In this document: positions 3,431 to 12,705 of the stretch, piece by piece
Numbering within the stretch: position 1 is the stretch's first letter
Layout of the letters: each line of letters opens with the position of its first letter
Origin: Chitinophagales bacterium
GTDB taxonomy: Bacteria; Bacteroidota; Bacteroidia; Chitinophagales; JADIYW01
Assembly: GCA_020848315.1 (NCBI GenBank)
Contig: JADLAH010000097.1
Location: 1-13,258, forward strand
Direction: 5' to 3'
Length of the DNA stretch: 13,258 nt
The notes under the pieces: generated by a model
The model's input: the letters and a program-made list of their open reading frames with translations, nothing else
Told to the model about the DNA's origin: nothing
Databases searched by the model: none
Translations under genes and position numbers: made by a program

Positions 3431-3444
3431 GGGTTTGGCACCTG

Positions 3445-3517
3445 TGATCCCGCTGGGATTCGAACCCAGGACCCATACATTAAAAGTGTATTGCTCTACC
3501 AGCTGAGCTACGGAATC
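3445..3517 (-). tRNA. tRNA-Lys (anticodon UUU)
   Basis: This is a complete class I cloverleaf of 73 nt including the discriminator A (3445). The acceptor is GATTCCG paired with CGGGATC, with one U-G. The D-arm is GCTC...GAGC. The anticodon arm is ATACA-CTTTTAA-TGTAT with UUU at the centre, and the T-arm is CTGGG-TTCGAAT-CCCAG. No CCA is encoded: the bases after the discriminator are CAGG, so the 3' end must be added by the nucleotidyltransferase encoded at 7356-8771. It forms an independent transcription unit with its own promoter upstream and terminator downstream. Confidence 0.97.
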
Positions 3518-7355: not shown

Positions 7356-8771
7356 ATGCAAATCCACTTTACGGAAAGAGAAACCGAATTACTTCGGATA
7401 GTAGCAAAGTGCGCACAGTCGATGGGGATTCAGGCATTCGCTATCGGCGGCTTTGTACGCGACAAGTTGCTGCAACGCGAATGTAAGGATATTGATATCG
7501 TCTGTACGGGAAGTGGCATAGAGCTTGCGCATCAGGTGGCCGCCGGCATACAACCTCATCCGCATGTGGCATATTTCAAAAATTTCGGAACGGCGCAAAT
7601 CAAACTCGATGATATCGAAATCGAATTCGTCGGTGCGCGTAAAGAATCGTACCGCCGCGATTCCAGAAAACCAATAGTGGAAGACGGTACGCTGGAAGAC
7701 GATCAGCAGCGCCGCGATTTTACCATCAATGCGCTCGCGATACAATTGAATGAAGCAGAATTTGGTCAGGTGACAGACCCGTTCAACGGATTGGAAGACC
7801 TGAAAAACGGGATTATCCGAACACCGCTCGATCCGCATATCACCTTCGATGATGATCCGCTGCGCATGTTGCGCGCAGTGCGGTTTGCCTCGCAACTGAA
7901 TTTCAGGATAGAAGATAAAACCTACAAGGCAATAGAGCCACTCGCATCGCGACTCAAAATTATATCTCAGGAAAGAATCACAGATGAATTGAATAAAATC
8001 ATCCTGTCGCCGGTGCCGTCCGTCGGTTTTCGCTTGTTGTTTAATACCACTTTGTTGCATCAGTTTTTTCCTGAAATGGTGAAGCTGCACGGTGTGTCTA
8101 TGGTGGAAAATTATGGACATAAAGACAATTTCTACCATACATTGAAAGTGCTGGATAATCTGTCGGAGAACACGGATAATCTCTGGTTGCGGTGGGCTGC
8201 CATCCTGCACGATATCGCCAAGCCTGCGACCCAACGTTTTGAAGAAGGACATGGATGGACTTTCCACGGCCACGAAGTGGTGGGCGCGCGCTGGACGCCC
8301 AAGATTTTCGCGCGGTTTAAACTGCCGTTGGATGAAAAGATGAAGTTTGTGCAGAAAATGGTGGCATTGCATCTGCGTCCAATCTCATTGACCAAAGATA
8401 ATATCACAGATTCCGCCATCCGCCGTTTGTTGTTTGATGCCGGCGAAGATCTGGAAAGCCTGCTGCTGTTGTGTGAGGCGGACATCACCTCCAAGAATGA
8501 ACAGAAAGTAGAACGCTACAAGGCCAACCTGAAACTCGTTCAGCAAAAGATAAAAGAAGTCGAGGAGCGCGATCATATTCGCAACTGGCAGCCGCCAATT
8601 GACGGAGAATTGATTATGAAAACATTTAATATTCGCCCGTCCCGTGAAGTCGGTATCATAAAAGAAGCCATCAAAGATGCAATTCTGGATGGTATCATTC
8701 CCAATGATTATGATGCGGCATACCGGTTAATGCTGGAGAAAGGCAAGATATTGAATCTGAAAACAGAATAA
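7356..8771 (+). CDS. CCA tRNA nucleotidyltransferase (class II, HD domain)
   Basis: This enzyme adds or repairs the 3' CCA of tRNAs from CTP and ATP without a template. The 471-residue protein is a class II polymerase-beta-like nucleotidyltransferase. It shows the GGFVRDKLL loop (31-39), the catalytic DID (45-47), RRDFTINALA (119-128), DPLRMLRAVRFASQLNF (167-183) and the QERITDEL neck motif (205-212). An HD-type domain follows (H261, then H285-D286 in AAILHDIAKP, and HGHE 304-307). Motifs alone do not separate a full CCA-adding enzyme from CC- or A-adding forms. As only one copy is visible and both tRNA genes here lack CCA, full activity is the likely reading. It has its own promoter close to the ATG and leads a tight run with the 8778 gene (6-nt gap) and miaA. 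Confidence 0.95.
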   Translation: MQIHFTERETELLRIVAKCAQSMGIQAFAIGGFVRDKLLQRECKDIDIVCTGSGIELAHQVAAGIQPHPHVAYFKNFGTAQIKLDDIEIEFVGARKESYRRDSRKPIVEDGTLEDDQQRRDFTINALAIQLNEAEFGQVTDPFNGLEDLKNGIIRTPLDPHITFDDDPLRMLRAVRFASQLNFRIEDKTYKAIEPLASRLKIISQERITDELNKIILSPVPSVGFRLLFNTTLLHQFFPEMVKLHGVSMVENYGHKDNFYHTLKVLDNLSENTDNLWLRWAAILHDIAKPATQRFEEGHGWTFHGHEVVGARWTPKIFARFKLPLDEKMKFVQKMVALHLRPISLTKDNITDSAIRRLLFDAGEDLESLLLLCEADITSKNEQKVERYKANLKLVQQKIKEVEERDHIRNWQPPIDGELIMKTFNIRPSREVGIIKEAIKDAILDGIIPNDYDAAYRLMLEKGKILNLKTE

Positions 8772-8777
8772 ACTAAG

Positions 8778-9227
8778 ATGAATAAAGAGGTTTTCAGTGA
8801 TAATGATATGAAACACATAAAAGAGGTTTTCAGGAAAGAATCTAAAGATAGCCTGAGAACCTATGCTGCCATCTTTATAATGGCGTCATATGTGGTGAGT
8901 ACAAGATCGAAGATTGATTTATTACTCAGATTGGCATATATTTTTTTTATTTTTGTGCCCTTGCTTGCGTTTGCTTTTTTTCTGACGAATAGAAGTATTT
9001 TATTGGATATGTATAAACGTGAAAAGATTGTTACGTCCGCAATAGTGAATATTGTGTCGCTGTTCGGTGTGCTTTCAGATGCACATGTTCAGTTGTTATT
9101 GCCCTCTGGCGCAATTATGAACTTTAGTATGCATCATGATCAGGCGGCAAGTCTGGCATCCGGAGATGATGTGTCGGTTGCATTTGCGCCGCGCAGCAAA
9201 GTGTTGTTTAAAATCAATAAGGTTTGA
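8778..9227 (+). CDS. Unrecognised single-span membrane protein
   Basis: I do not recognise this 149-residue protein. It has a charged, hydrophilic N-terminus (1-28), a first moderately hydrophobic segment (about 29-41, YAAIFIMASYVV) and a clear transmembrane helix at about 48-70 (LLRLAYIFFIFVPLLAFAFFL). A C-terminal part of mixed helix and strand follows (about 75-149) and looks like a small soluble domain. It contains no obvious catalytic motif. The gene is visibly richer in A/T than cca and miaA on either side. It starts 6 nt after the cca stop and its TGA overlaps the miaA TTG start by 3 bases, so it is firmly inside the operon. Its position between two tRNA enzymes may be chance; function unknown. 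Confidence 0.8.
   Translation: MNKEVFSDNDMKHIKEVFRKESKDSLRTYAAIFIMASYVVSTRSKIDLLLRLAYIFFIFVPLLAFAFFLTNRSILLDMYKREKIVTSAIVNIVSLFGVLSDAHVQLLLPSGAIMNFSMHHDQAASLASGDDVSVAFAPRSKVLFKINKV
8784..8833 (+). repeat. 14-nt direct repeat within the 8778 gene
   Basis: AAAGAGGTTTTCAG occurs at 8784-8797 and again at 8820-8833, exactly 36 nt (12 codons) apart, so both copies encode KEVF in frame. The bases between the copies are not themselves duplicated. Confidence 0.6.
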
Positions 9228-10147
9228 TTTCGTCTCCCAAATATCTCATTATTATTGCCGGTCCCACAGCGGTGGGTAAAACAGCTGTAGCTATTGAAGT
9301 GGCAAAACATTTCCATACCGACATCGTCTCCGCGGATTCCAGGCAGCTGTTCAAAGAACTGAGTATTGGGGTCGCACGTCCGTCGGAAGCGGAACTGGCT
9401 GAAGTGAAACATCATTTTATCGCGAATAAAAGCATAGATGAATATATTTCCGCTGGTGAATACCAGCGGGAAGTCATGGATTTGCTGCATGAATTGTATG
9501 CAACAAAAGATGTTGTGGTGTTGTGCGGTGGCACCGGATTTTACATCAATGCATTGCTGTACGGATTGGATAAAATTCCGGATATCGATCCCGCTGTCCG
9601 TGCGCTGCTGAACCGCGAGTGCGAATTGCACGGACTGGTGCCTTTGCAGCAACGGTTGAAAGAGTTGGATGAAACAACGTATCACAGTATCGATGTGCAA
9701 AATACACAGCGCGTTATTCGTGCACTCGAAGTTTGTATCGGCACAGGAATGCCATTCTCCGCTTTCAAAACAAGACAAGCCGTGTCGCCATTGGAAGCCG
9801 CCGGTATCATTCCCGTGAAAATTGCATTGAATATGCCGAAAGAACAACTGCATCAGCGCATCAATGAACGAGTCGATGCCATGATGGAAGCCGGTTTCCT
9901 GGAAGAGGCAAAAAGTGTGCATGCATATAAATCGCACAATGCCCTGCAGACGGTAGGATACAAGGAGCTTTTTGATTTTGTAGAGGGGAAATGCACGTTG
10001 GAAGAAGCTGTGTCGCTCATTAAATTACATACCCGGCAATACGCCAAAAGGCAACTCACTTTTTTTAATAAAAACGACGATTACCACTGGTTCCATCCGT
10101 CGGAGATTCCTCAGTTGTTGCAGTTTCTGAAAGAAACTATCCGCTAA
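9224..10147 (+). CDS. miaA: tRNA dimethylallyltransferase MiaA
   Basis: MiaA transfers the dimethylallyl group from DMAPP to N6 of A37 in UNN-decoding tRNAs, the first step toward i6A/ms2i6A. The 307-residue length is normal. Motifs: P-loop GPTAVGKT (13-20), SADSRQLFKELSIG (36-49) with the catalytic Asp and substrate-adenine contacts, CGGTGFYINALL (101-112), NTQRVIRALEV, and the C-terminal VGYKELFDFVEG plus HTRQYAKRQLTFF that contacts the anticodon arm. The start is TTG at 9224, overlapping the TGA of the previous gene (TTGA). No ATG lies before the P-loop, so this non-ATG start is required and points to translation coupled with the upstream gene. Together with the TsaC-type gene at 6734 the window holds enzymes for both common A37 modifications. 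Confidence 0.96.
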   Translation: MISSPKYLIIIAGPTAVGKTAVAIEVAKHFHTDIVSADSRQLFKELSIGVARPSEAELAEVKHHFIANKSIDEYISAGEYQREVMDLLHELYATKDVVVLCGGTGFYINALLYGLDKIPDIDPAVRALLNRECELHGLVPLQQRLKELDETTYHSIDVQNTQRVIRALEVCIGTGMPFSAFKTRQAVSPLEAAGIIPVKIALNMPKEQLHQRINERVDAMMEAGFLEEAKSVHAYKSHNALQTVGYKELFDFVEGKCTLEEAVSLIKLHTRQYAKRQLTFFNKNDDYHWFHPSEIPQLLQFLKETIR

Positions 10148-12438: not shown

Positions 12439-12468
12439 AAATCGCCGAACCACATGGTTCGGCGATTT
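12439..12468. terminator. Perfect hairpin terminator between DUF1003 gene and RNA gene
   Basis: AAATCGCCGAACC pairs fully with GGTTCGGCGATTT (13 bp) around an ACAT loop. The A/T ends of the stem act as a short T run on both strands. It lies 22 nt after the DUF1003 stop codon and 18 nt after the 3' end of the minus-strand RNA gene, so it can serve both. Confidence 0.82.
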
Positions 12469-12486
12469 CGCTTTCGTAACAATAAG

Positions 12487-12643
12487 CTGTGAAGGTAGGA
12501 CTCGAACCTACACAAGGCGATTAGGAACAGGACAAAAAGTTGGTGGTCAACCCCTGCACACTGAAGTGCTCTACCCTGTCTTTATTTCGAACTCCTCACC
12601 CCCGAGACAAGAGGGCATGGCTGCCAAATTTCATCACCTCACA
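12487..12643 (-). tRNA. tRNA-like RNA, anticodon GUC (Asp-type), with 87-nt variable domain
   Basis: On the minus strand these 157 nt fold as a cloverleaf. The acceptor TGTGAGG (12643-12637) pairs in all 7 positions with CTTCACA (12494-12488, one G-U), with discriminator G at 12487. The D-arm is AUG/CAU with a 12-nt loop containing GG (12625-12624). The anticodon arm is CCCTC-TTGTCTC-GGGGG (12615-12599) with GUC at 12608-12606. The T-arm is GTAGG-TTCGAGT-CCTAC (12511-12495). Between the anticodon and T arms lie 87 nt (12598-12512) that can form their own helices. CCA is not encoded. The 3-bp D-stem resembles class II tRNAs. Asp identity features (G73, GUC, C38, G2-C71) are present, but pairs U1-A72 and base U37 are odd. 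It has its own promoter and terminator. Whether it is aminoacylated, or is a tRNA-derived regulatory RNA or decaying tRNA, is open. Confidence 0.72.
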
Positions 12644-12673
12644 ATGTGATTCTCTATAAGAACTTTGATACTG

Positions 12674-12705
12674 CAAATTTAATAAAACAACGCTATTTGT
12701 GCAAA
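12674..12705 (-). promoter_or_regulatory. Promoter of the tRNA-like RNA
   Basis: On the minus strand TTTG (12705-12702), 20 nt, then TAAATTTG (12681-12674), an exact match to the Bacteroidota consensus. Transcription would start roughly 25 nt before the tRNA-like 5' end, leaving a short 5' leader of the kind RNase P removes. Confidence 0.75.

Follow-up and report, generated by a model that had tools for sequence, protein, structure and literature searches.

The window, that is, the whole stretch of 13,258 nucleotides analyzed here (contig JADLAH010000097.1 of a Chitinophagales bacterium), carries a tRNA-like RNA on its minus strand. A complete cloverleaf with 87 nt between the anticodon and T arms had been proposed here by the first-pass annotation and is indeed present, and the covariance model of the family described below matches positions 12484-12647 with 156.4 bits. 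Elsewhere in the window are a tRNA-Lys (3444-3517, ARAGORN), a PolyA_pol/HD protein of the CCA-adding enzyme type (7356-8771, Pfam) and an IPP transferase of the MiaA type (9224-10147, Pfam). The features of the RNA and its flanks, in the direction of the minus strand, are as follows.

12674..12681, minus strand: promoter-like box TAAATTTG, 30 nt upstream of position 1
12486..12643, minus strand: whole tRNA-like RNA, from position 1 to G73 plus a templated C74 (from the sequence, family alignment and pair counts)
12637..12643, minus strand: acceptor stem, 5' strand UGUGAGG, with U1 at 12643
12617..12634, minus strand: D arm, 3-bp stem AUG/CAU, loop with G18, G19, C20 and A20a
12599..12615, minus strand: anticodon arm, 5-bp stem CCCUC/GGGGG
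12604..12610, minus strand: anticodon loop UUGUCUC, 7 nt (position counts over 62 members), with G34 at 12608, U35 at 12607, C36 at 12606, U37 at 12605 and C38 at 12604
12512..12598, minus strand: variable domain, 87 nt counted between the anticodon and T stems
12594..12597, minus strand: helix V1, 5' strand GAGG (3' strand at 12514-12517)
12587..12589, minus strand: helix V2, 5' strand CGA (3' strand at 12518-12520)
12581..12586, minus strand: conserved internal loop AAUAAA, with CUAA at 12521-12524 as its other strand (conserved alignment columns)
12525..12580, minus strand: V3, a variable helix with an extended subdomain
12495..12511, minus strand: T arm, loop UUCGAGU
12488..12494, minus strand: acceptor stem, 3' strand CUUCACA, with A72 at 12488
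12486..12487, minus strand: G73 (12487) and C74 (12486), both present in 62 of 62 members
12439..12468, minus strand: terminator-like hairpin downstream of the RNA (1 found, against 0.4 ± 0.7 in shuffled sequences)

U8 and G9 lie between the acceptor and D stems, and C74 is templated in the tRNAs of the same genome too. The motif TANNTTTG, which we take to be the Bacteroidota -7 element, was found in the 40 nt that precede the RNA in 29 of 100 cellular members (2.4 in shuffled sequences) and in 2 of 76 viral ones. The tRNA-Lys was all that ARAGORN, and Rfam at its gathering scores, reported in the window; both missed the tRNA-like RNA, and a lax-threshold Rfam search gave a tRNA match in the region with 17 bits (E value of 0.74). 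At the loci of relatives, ARAGORN found no gene in 25 and Rfam no match in 20, and the compact phage members are called tRNA-Asp(gtc) by ARAGORN. Two other candidates were discarded. A group I intron would sit at the wrong site, and a tmRNA was rejected for lack of a tmRNA-family match in the region at E values of up to 10 or of any hit in the tmRNA search of ARAGORN. Like the RNA described here, tmRNA is tRNA-like and longer than a tRNA, and the two co-occur on the same huge phages, but our RNA has a full anticodon arm and D stem.

A conserved RNA family

The window RNA belongs to a conserved RNA family. That its structure is more than chance follows from comparison across the family and not from the folding of a single sequence, as its folding energy is ordinary (z of 0.33 for the minus strand, with 132 of 200 shuffles folding at least as well, and 0.34 for the plus strand) and its minimum free energy structure is not the cloverleaf. 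In a seed of 23 sequences, 99.0% of 667 cells pair and 14 of 29 pairs show changes on both sides; the covariation score is 0.436, whereas shuffles give 0.188 and slid alignments no more than 0.120. A further 106 matches from named genomes, which lay outside model building, paired in 96.6% of cells with 23 of 29 pairs changed on both sides; this alignment was fitted to the model and takes in five weak or truncated rows. The pair counts of alignment A3, where members are mixed with ordinary phage tRNAs, were left out.

Within the 7-bp acceptor stem, U1-A72, G2-C71 and U3-A70 are invariant in all 23 seed sequences, and the remaining four pairs vary with pairing retained. The D stem has two-sided changes in one of its three pairs in the seed and in all three in the 106-match set. 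In the variable domain, V1 changes on both sides in 3 of 4 pairs (100% of seed cells paired) and V2 in 3 of 3 (98.6%), 6 of 7 taken together. The structured insertion suggested by the first-pass annotation for the variable domain is upheld, as is the derivation of the RNA from a tRNA. The first two pairs of V3 also change two-sidedly, with 87% of seed cells paired. RNAalifold recovered the acceptor, V1, V2 and T helices from the seed and paired the D and anticodon regions otherwise; we retained the tRNA pairing there because the D and anticodon stems show two-sided changes and the alternative pairs of RNAalifold show none. By inspection, the motif GGGGUUGACCACC (12554-12542, within V3) appears confined to an extended subtype, and the variable-domain motif of this subtype, GGGRTTGACCAC (window 12542-12554 and relatives), includes GAC, complementary to the anticodon GUC.

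The first-pass annotation had also proposed a covariance-model search of Bacteroidota and had named a broken tRNA remnant as the alternative; the search found homologues of the same layout with paired substitutions. A broken tRNA or a mobile-element remnant would agree with the failure of tRNA finders and with the occurrence on phage contigs, but is refuted by the covariation (23 of 29 pairs two-sided) and by the conservation of invariant positions and of the whole RNA in phages, so that its probability is negligible. What did not hold was the large variable domain as a constant feature: the domain measures 39 to 131 nt in 151 cellular members and 21 to 102 nt in 78 viral members, and it shrinks to 7 nt in one compact cellular variant (genome G126, L365 1336-1418; loop CUAUCUC, followed by a strong hairpin). 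The core of the function therefore lies outside the domain, which is this short in G126 and also short in some phages. It is the anticodon loop, the first base pair, position 73 and the neighboring gene that are informative.

Distribution in bacterial genomes and phages

BLAST of the region gave matches in 24 of 60 genomes, its own included, some only through parts of ordinary tRNAs. With the covariance model, among 53 genomes of the window's order, 17 scored at least 117 bits and all the rest at most 60. In a phylum-wide set of 395 genomes, which included the window's own, 40 had a match of at least 89 bits, followed by G126 with 73 bits and then by scores of no more than 65. The positives fall in families f1, f18 and f20 of the same order, f23, f28, f29 and f30 of the same class and f68 outside the class. 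A pattern scan of named genomes gave at least 80 loci, all 80 with a model match of at least 86.6 bits; the titles of the listed loci include Chitinophaga, Saprospiraceae, Cyclobacteriaceae, Pedobacter, Dyadobacter, Spirosoma and Fulvivirga, and one is a metagenome-assembled genome labelled Ignavibacteriales. We considered as members those sequences with at least 86 bits in the bacterial genome searches, some viral members scoring 85 to 86; G126 (73 bits) and a truncated viral locus (L230, 72 bits) lie between these and the weak matches. The latter, at about 41 to 65 bits and mostly 88 to 93 nt long, were taken for ordinary class II tRNAs, such as the tRNALeu genes present on G000:C251, and rejected. 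No plasmid matched the window RNA. In the open-licence literature we found no title or abstract opening that describes such an RNA, which is weak evidence of novelty, and the word "bacteroid" is absent from the available text of a review of non-canonical tRNAs (PMC7609411).

The same pattern scan applied to IMG/VR gave at least 80 viral loci; among the 80 listed, 79 match the model with at least 84.9 bits and one is truncated at 71.8. Among these 80 stretches, 35 carry no other tRNA, 11 have at least 10 tRNA or tmRNA genes, and 7 have a tmRNA. An ordinary tRNA-Asp(GUC) stands alongside the RNA in five (L199, L225, L236, L238 and L244). Phage-family matches were obtained for four of seven viral-stretch proteins tested (exonuclease, terminase, PhoH-like and portal). 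In INPHARED, the RNAs of L249 and L244 had no match, and the compact RNA of L202 matched 13 records. Of these, LR756504.1 has a real member (116.1 bits) among its tRNA genes and represents an uncultured phage 636,363 bp in length, MT835737.1 holds an ordinary tRNALeu, and eleven Streptococcus phage records matched only 25% of the query. The window RNA itself gave a 30-nt match to one Erwinia phage. An attachment site was ruled out, since the whole RNA is present in phages. Some phage members have long D-loop insertions as well (L181, L191, L193, L199, L225, L244 and L245).

Conserved positions and tRNA identity

Since the scan pattern fixes GTCTC, loop counts are biased in the named-genome and IMG/VR sets. 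For the position counts we used 62 members detected through DNA similarity or the model, with no selection on the loop, although the model itself was built on similar sequences. U1-A72, G73 and C74 are present in all 62, as are U35, C36 and C38 of the anticodon loop, and G34 is present in 61. U1-A72 was also found in 100 of 101 cases in named genomes and in 77 of 79 viral ones. Several marks of an elongator tRNA are kept, namely the 7-bp acceptor stem, the T loop TTCRA and G18 G19. Those lost are U33 together with a purine at position 37 and recognition by ARAGORN or by RF00005 at its gathering score: U33 is found in 47 of 62 members, a purine at 37 in one, and U37 in 59, compared with 20/20 for both U33 and purine 37 in the tRNAs of the same genome and with 279/281 and 278/281, respectively, in tRNAs of the viral stretches.

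In a review (PMC9976931), the determinants of bacterial tRNAAsp are given as G73, G10, G34, U35, C36 and C38; U1-A72 is described there as conferring amidation on Asp-tRNAAsn, and G1-C72 with U20a as preventing it in Asp-tRNAAsp. The aspartyl-tRNA synthetase (AspRS) set G34, U35, C36, C38 and G73 is present in our RNA, with exceptions at position 34 in genus g60 (C34 in G219 and G440, A34 in G126) and in G373 (U34). These exceptions retain U1-A72, G73 and GatB. Either U35, C36, C38 and G73 suffice there or another enzyme charges the RNA. All 23 seed sequences have A10 in place of the listed G10, and all have A20a, so that both antideterminants of amidation, G1-C72 and U20a, are absent. The anticodon is GUC and not the GUU of tRNAAsn. 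In the window's own genome, tRNAAsp has G1-C72 and, if its D loop is numbered in the standard way, U20a, and tRNAAsn also has U1-A72. The RNA thus appears, judged from its sequence, to combine the charging face of tRNAAsp with the amidation mark of tRNAAsn, while its loop is not suited to decoding. Compared with bacterial tRNAAsp, with which it shares G34, U35, C36, C38 and G73, it has U1-A72 instead of G1-C72, A20a, a class II arm, any nucleotide at 33 and U37. The conservation of U37, on a par with that of the AspRS positions, sits outside the explanation proposed below.

An unusual tRNAAsp that decodes Asp codons would account for the anticodon GUC, the AspRS determinants and the tRNA-Asp(gtc) calls on compact phage members. 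It is very unlikely given the frequencies of U33 and purine 37 relative to the genome's own tRNAs, the U1-A72 pair, which would let GatCAB convert Asp to Asn on it, and the ordinary tRNAAsp already present in the genome and in phage arrays. With tRNALeu and tRNASer the RNA has in common the long variable arm; its 3-bp D stem and D-loop layout are tRNALeu-like and G73 is found in tRNASer too, but its anticodon is another one and its variable domain, of up to 131 nt, contains V1, V2 and the conserved internal loop. Seryl-tRNA synthetase (SerRS) does not need the anticodon loop, and the conservation of this loop argues against a seryl acceptor. Recognition elements of SerRS include the long arm and G73 (PMC7609411), and charging by SerRS through them would be conceivable, but the RNA has A72 and not the listed C72, C11 occurs in only 3 of 23 seed sequences and the variable arm of G126 is 7 nt long, so we give this reading almost no credence. 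Compared with the allo-tRNAs and other non-canonical tRNAs treated in that review, the shape is similarly unusual, but the 12-bp acceptor-T branch has the ordinary 7/5 division in this RNA.

AsnC-like neighbor, GatB and a proposed asparagine carrier

One protein cluster is found near the RNA in 49 of the 80 listed named loci, in 48 of them divergent, upstream and within 600 nt; asnC and asnA are likewise divergent in Escherichia coli. Four representatives match Pfam AsnC_trans_reg, and AsnC is the best NCBIfam model for all four proteins tested (160.9 to 173.7 bits; next best at most 83.3); as these scores are below the equivalog cutoff of NF008384 (227 bits), we call the proteins AsnC-like. 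By coordinates, the gene is divergent from and adjacent to the RNA in 29 of 40 RNA-positive genomes, and AsnC-like proteins (E value of 1e-30) occur in 39 of 40 RNA-positive versus 18 of 40 RNA-negative genomes. The gene is not adjacent to the RNA in the window's family, and AsnC was not matched within 3.5 kb around the G126 RNA or in any viral stretch searched. Conversely, inspection of the AsnC-like gene in seven RNA-negative genomes, G002, G009, G014, G023 (where the contig ends about 250 nt past the gene), G040, G061 and G176, showed no RNA next to it. Among neighbor clusters judged by sequence, the GNAT and DUF1003 neighbors in the window are absent from the 25 most widespread. AMP-binding (acyl-CoA ligase-like) and SufB-like genes, both assigned by eye, are common neighbors of the RNA and the AsnC-like gene in a set of loci (L069, L093, L096, L099, L102, L129, L130, L134, L135 and L137), and in one RNA-negative genome the AsnC-like gene adjoins asnS, convergent and at about 90 nt (G400:C54:82131-84050).

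The divergent AsnC-like gene, together with the conserved internal loop and V1/V2 helices, might point to a regulatory RNA that is charged by AspRS, perhaps amidated, and reports the supply of Asp or Asn, via AsnC or by titrating AspRS or GatCAB, with no bulk synthesis of Asn. We regard this as unlikely, given that phages carry the RNA without AsnC and that the variable domain of G126 has only 7 nt. In staphylococci, non-proteogenic tRNAs supply glycine for cell-wall synthesis; like the RNA proposed here, they are reserved for a pathway outside the ribosome, with a different amino acid, pathway and structure. A similar non-ribosomal donor of Asp or Asn to a lipid, peptide or protein, with GatCAB making the donor where an amide is needed, would have the same charging and amidation marks. 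However, no transferase gene recurs beside the RNA in the 80 listed named loci, the AsnC-like cluster being the only one found near it in more than 11 of them, and such a donor seems quite unlikely.

We compared 40 RNA-positive and 40 RNA-negative genomes, with their status taken from covariance-model searches and the presence of GatCAB judged by GatB, in genomes other than the window's own. GatB was found in 40/40 RNA-positive and 17/40 RNA-negative genomes, AsnRS in 40/40 and 39/40, and GlnRS in 31/40 and 24/40. GlnRS is absent from 15 of the 17 RNA-negative genomes with GatB, where GatCAB is therefore needed for Gln-tRNA, and from nine RNA-positive ones, where it is needed anyway. Among the 55 genomes with GlnRS, all with AsnRS, the RNA and GatB agree in 53 (31 with both and 22 with neither; Fisher test, P = 2e-13, for related genomes and not corrected for kinship). 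The two exceptions, G002 and G023, are RNA negative with GatB and GlnRS. The agreement also holds within families, as both are absent in G044 and G169 (f20), in G061, G176 and G412 (f23) and in G001, from the window's genus. A hold-out of 63 other genomes, scored for GatB only, showed GatB in 16/16 RNA-positive and 3/46 RNA-negative genomes and also in G126, which has the 73-bit short variant. The three RNA-negative genomes are G096 and, more weakly, G208 and G255, whose GatB-like matches (G208:C43:19334-20722 and G255:C26:9364-10752; 351 to 355 bits) lie inside frames of 1117 and 1123 codons.

AsnA was found in 4/40 RNA-positive versus 9/40 RNA-negative genomes, which alone is not significant. 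Among the matches listed (at least about 290 bits), a short type of AsnB (profile to 384-387 of 517, frames of 528 to 578 codons, presumably the size of E. coli AsnB) occurred in 12 RNA-negative, GatB-negative genomes and in no RNA-positive one, so that AsnA or this AsnB, among the matches listed, is present in 4/40 versus 16/40. AsnB matches over the cutoff, most of them to a longer type, were obtained in 33 of the 40 RNA-positive genomes, and Asn may thus be made otherwise in them; G013, G028, G204, G243, G302, G322 and G373 are RNA positive without AsnA and without such an AsnB.

According to PMC4206432, AsnRS, GlnRS and GatCAB occur together without an Asn synthetase in 18 genera, including Bacteroidetes, and its authors propose that tRNAAsn is charged there by a non-discriminating AspRS. 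Asn would then be made on tRNAAsn by this AspRS and GatCAB, as described for Bdellovibrio in that source, and the RNA would do something else. The pathway is known, and GatCAB could act on the genome's own tRNAAsn, which has U1-A72, but this gives no account of why GatB follows the RNA among genomes with GlnRS and AsnRS, and we consider it highly improbable.

From the observed RNA family and its fold, the conserved positions, the AsnC-like neighbor and the co-occurrence with GatB, we infer with a probability of roughly 0.7 that the RNA is a non-decoding tRNA dedicated to tRNA-dependent asparagine synthesis, in which it acts as the carrier. Once expressed, the RNA would be charged with Asp by the ordinary AspRS through G34, U35, C36, C38 and G73, and GatCAB would amidate the bound Asp to Asn, recognizing U1-A72 with no block by G1-C72 or U20a. 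Asn would leave the RNA by hydrolysis or transfer and join the pool used by AsnRS. The loss of U33 and of purine 37, with the bulky variable domain, would keep the charged RNA off the ribosome; there it would place Asn at Asp codons. AsnC, usually divergent beside the RNA, would raise its synthesis when Asn is scarce, like AsnC of E. coli at asnA. According to PMC8707732, E. coli AsnC activates asnA, less so with Asn present; the likeness lies in an AsnC regulator beside a would-be Asn maker, with the RNA in the place of the asparagine synthetase. The closest known system is the tRNA-dependent synthesis of Asn on tRNAAsn in Bdellovibrio, Deinococcus and Thermus (PMC4206432), which has in common the charging by AspRS, the amidation by GatCAB and the U1-A72 mark; there the carrier decodes (GUU) and AspRS is non-discriminating, whereas here a separate non-decoding RNA with an Asp anticodon is proposed. 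A separate role for the RNA, one of the options of the first-pass annotation, is very probable, and its list did include a non-ribosomal aminoacyl donor, but the amino acid, the pathway and the partners were not named.

At slightly under even odds, this carrier would be a purpose-built RNA cofactor through which an ordinary, discriminating AspRS supplies GatCAB; the variable domain would perhaps tether both enzymes, and phages, the 636-kb one included, would carry the RNA as an auxiliary metabolic RNA that raises or protects the Asn supply of the infected host. If the asparagine carrier is real, a non-decoding RNA would be the scaffold of amino acid biosynthesis, a role known, to our knowledge, only for tRNAs that also decode. 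It may also explain why these bacteria retain an enzyme apparently unneeded for protein synthesis and would add an RNA family unrecognized by the Rfam and ARAGORN searches run. The retention of GatCAB would become predictable from genome to genome, and phage non-coding RNAs would seem to serve metabolism as well as translation. The puzzle of AsnRS, GlnRS and GatCAB occurring together, as posed in PMC4206432, would be solved. Tandem copies of the RNA, two or three per genome, were observed at several loci (L010 1501-2103, L014 1262-1657, L059, L060 and L126 39-470).
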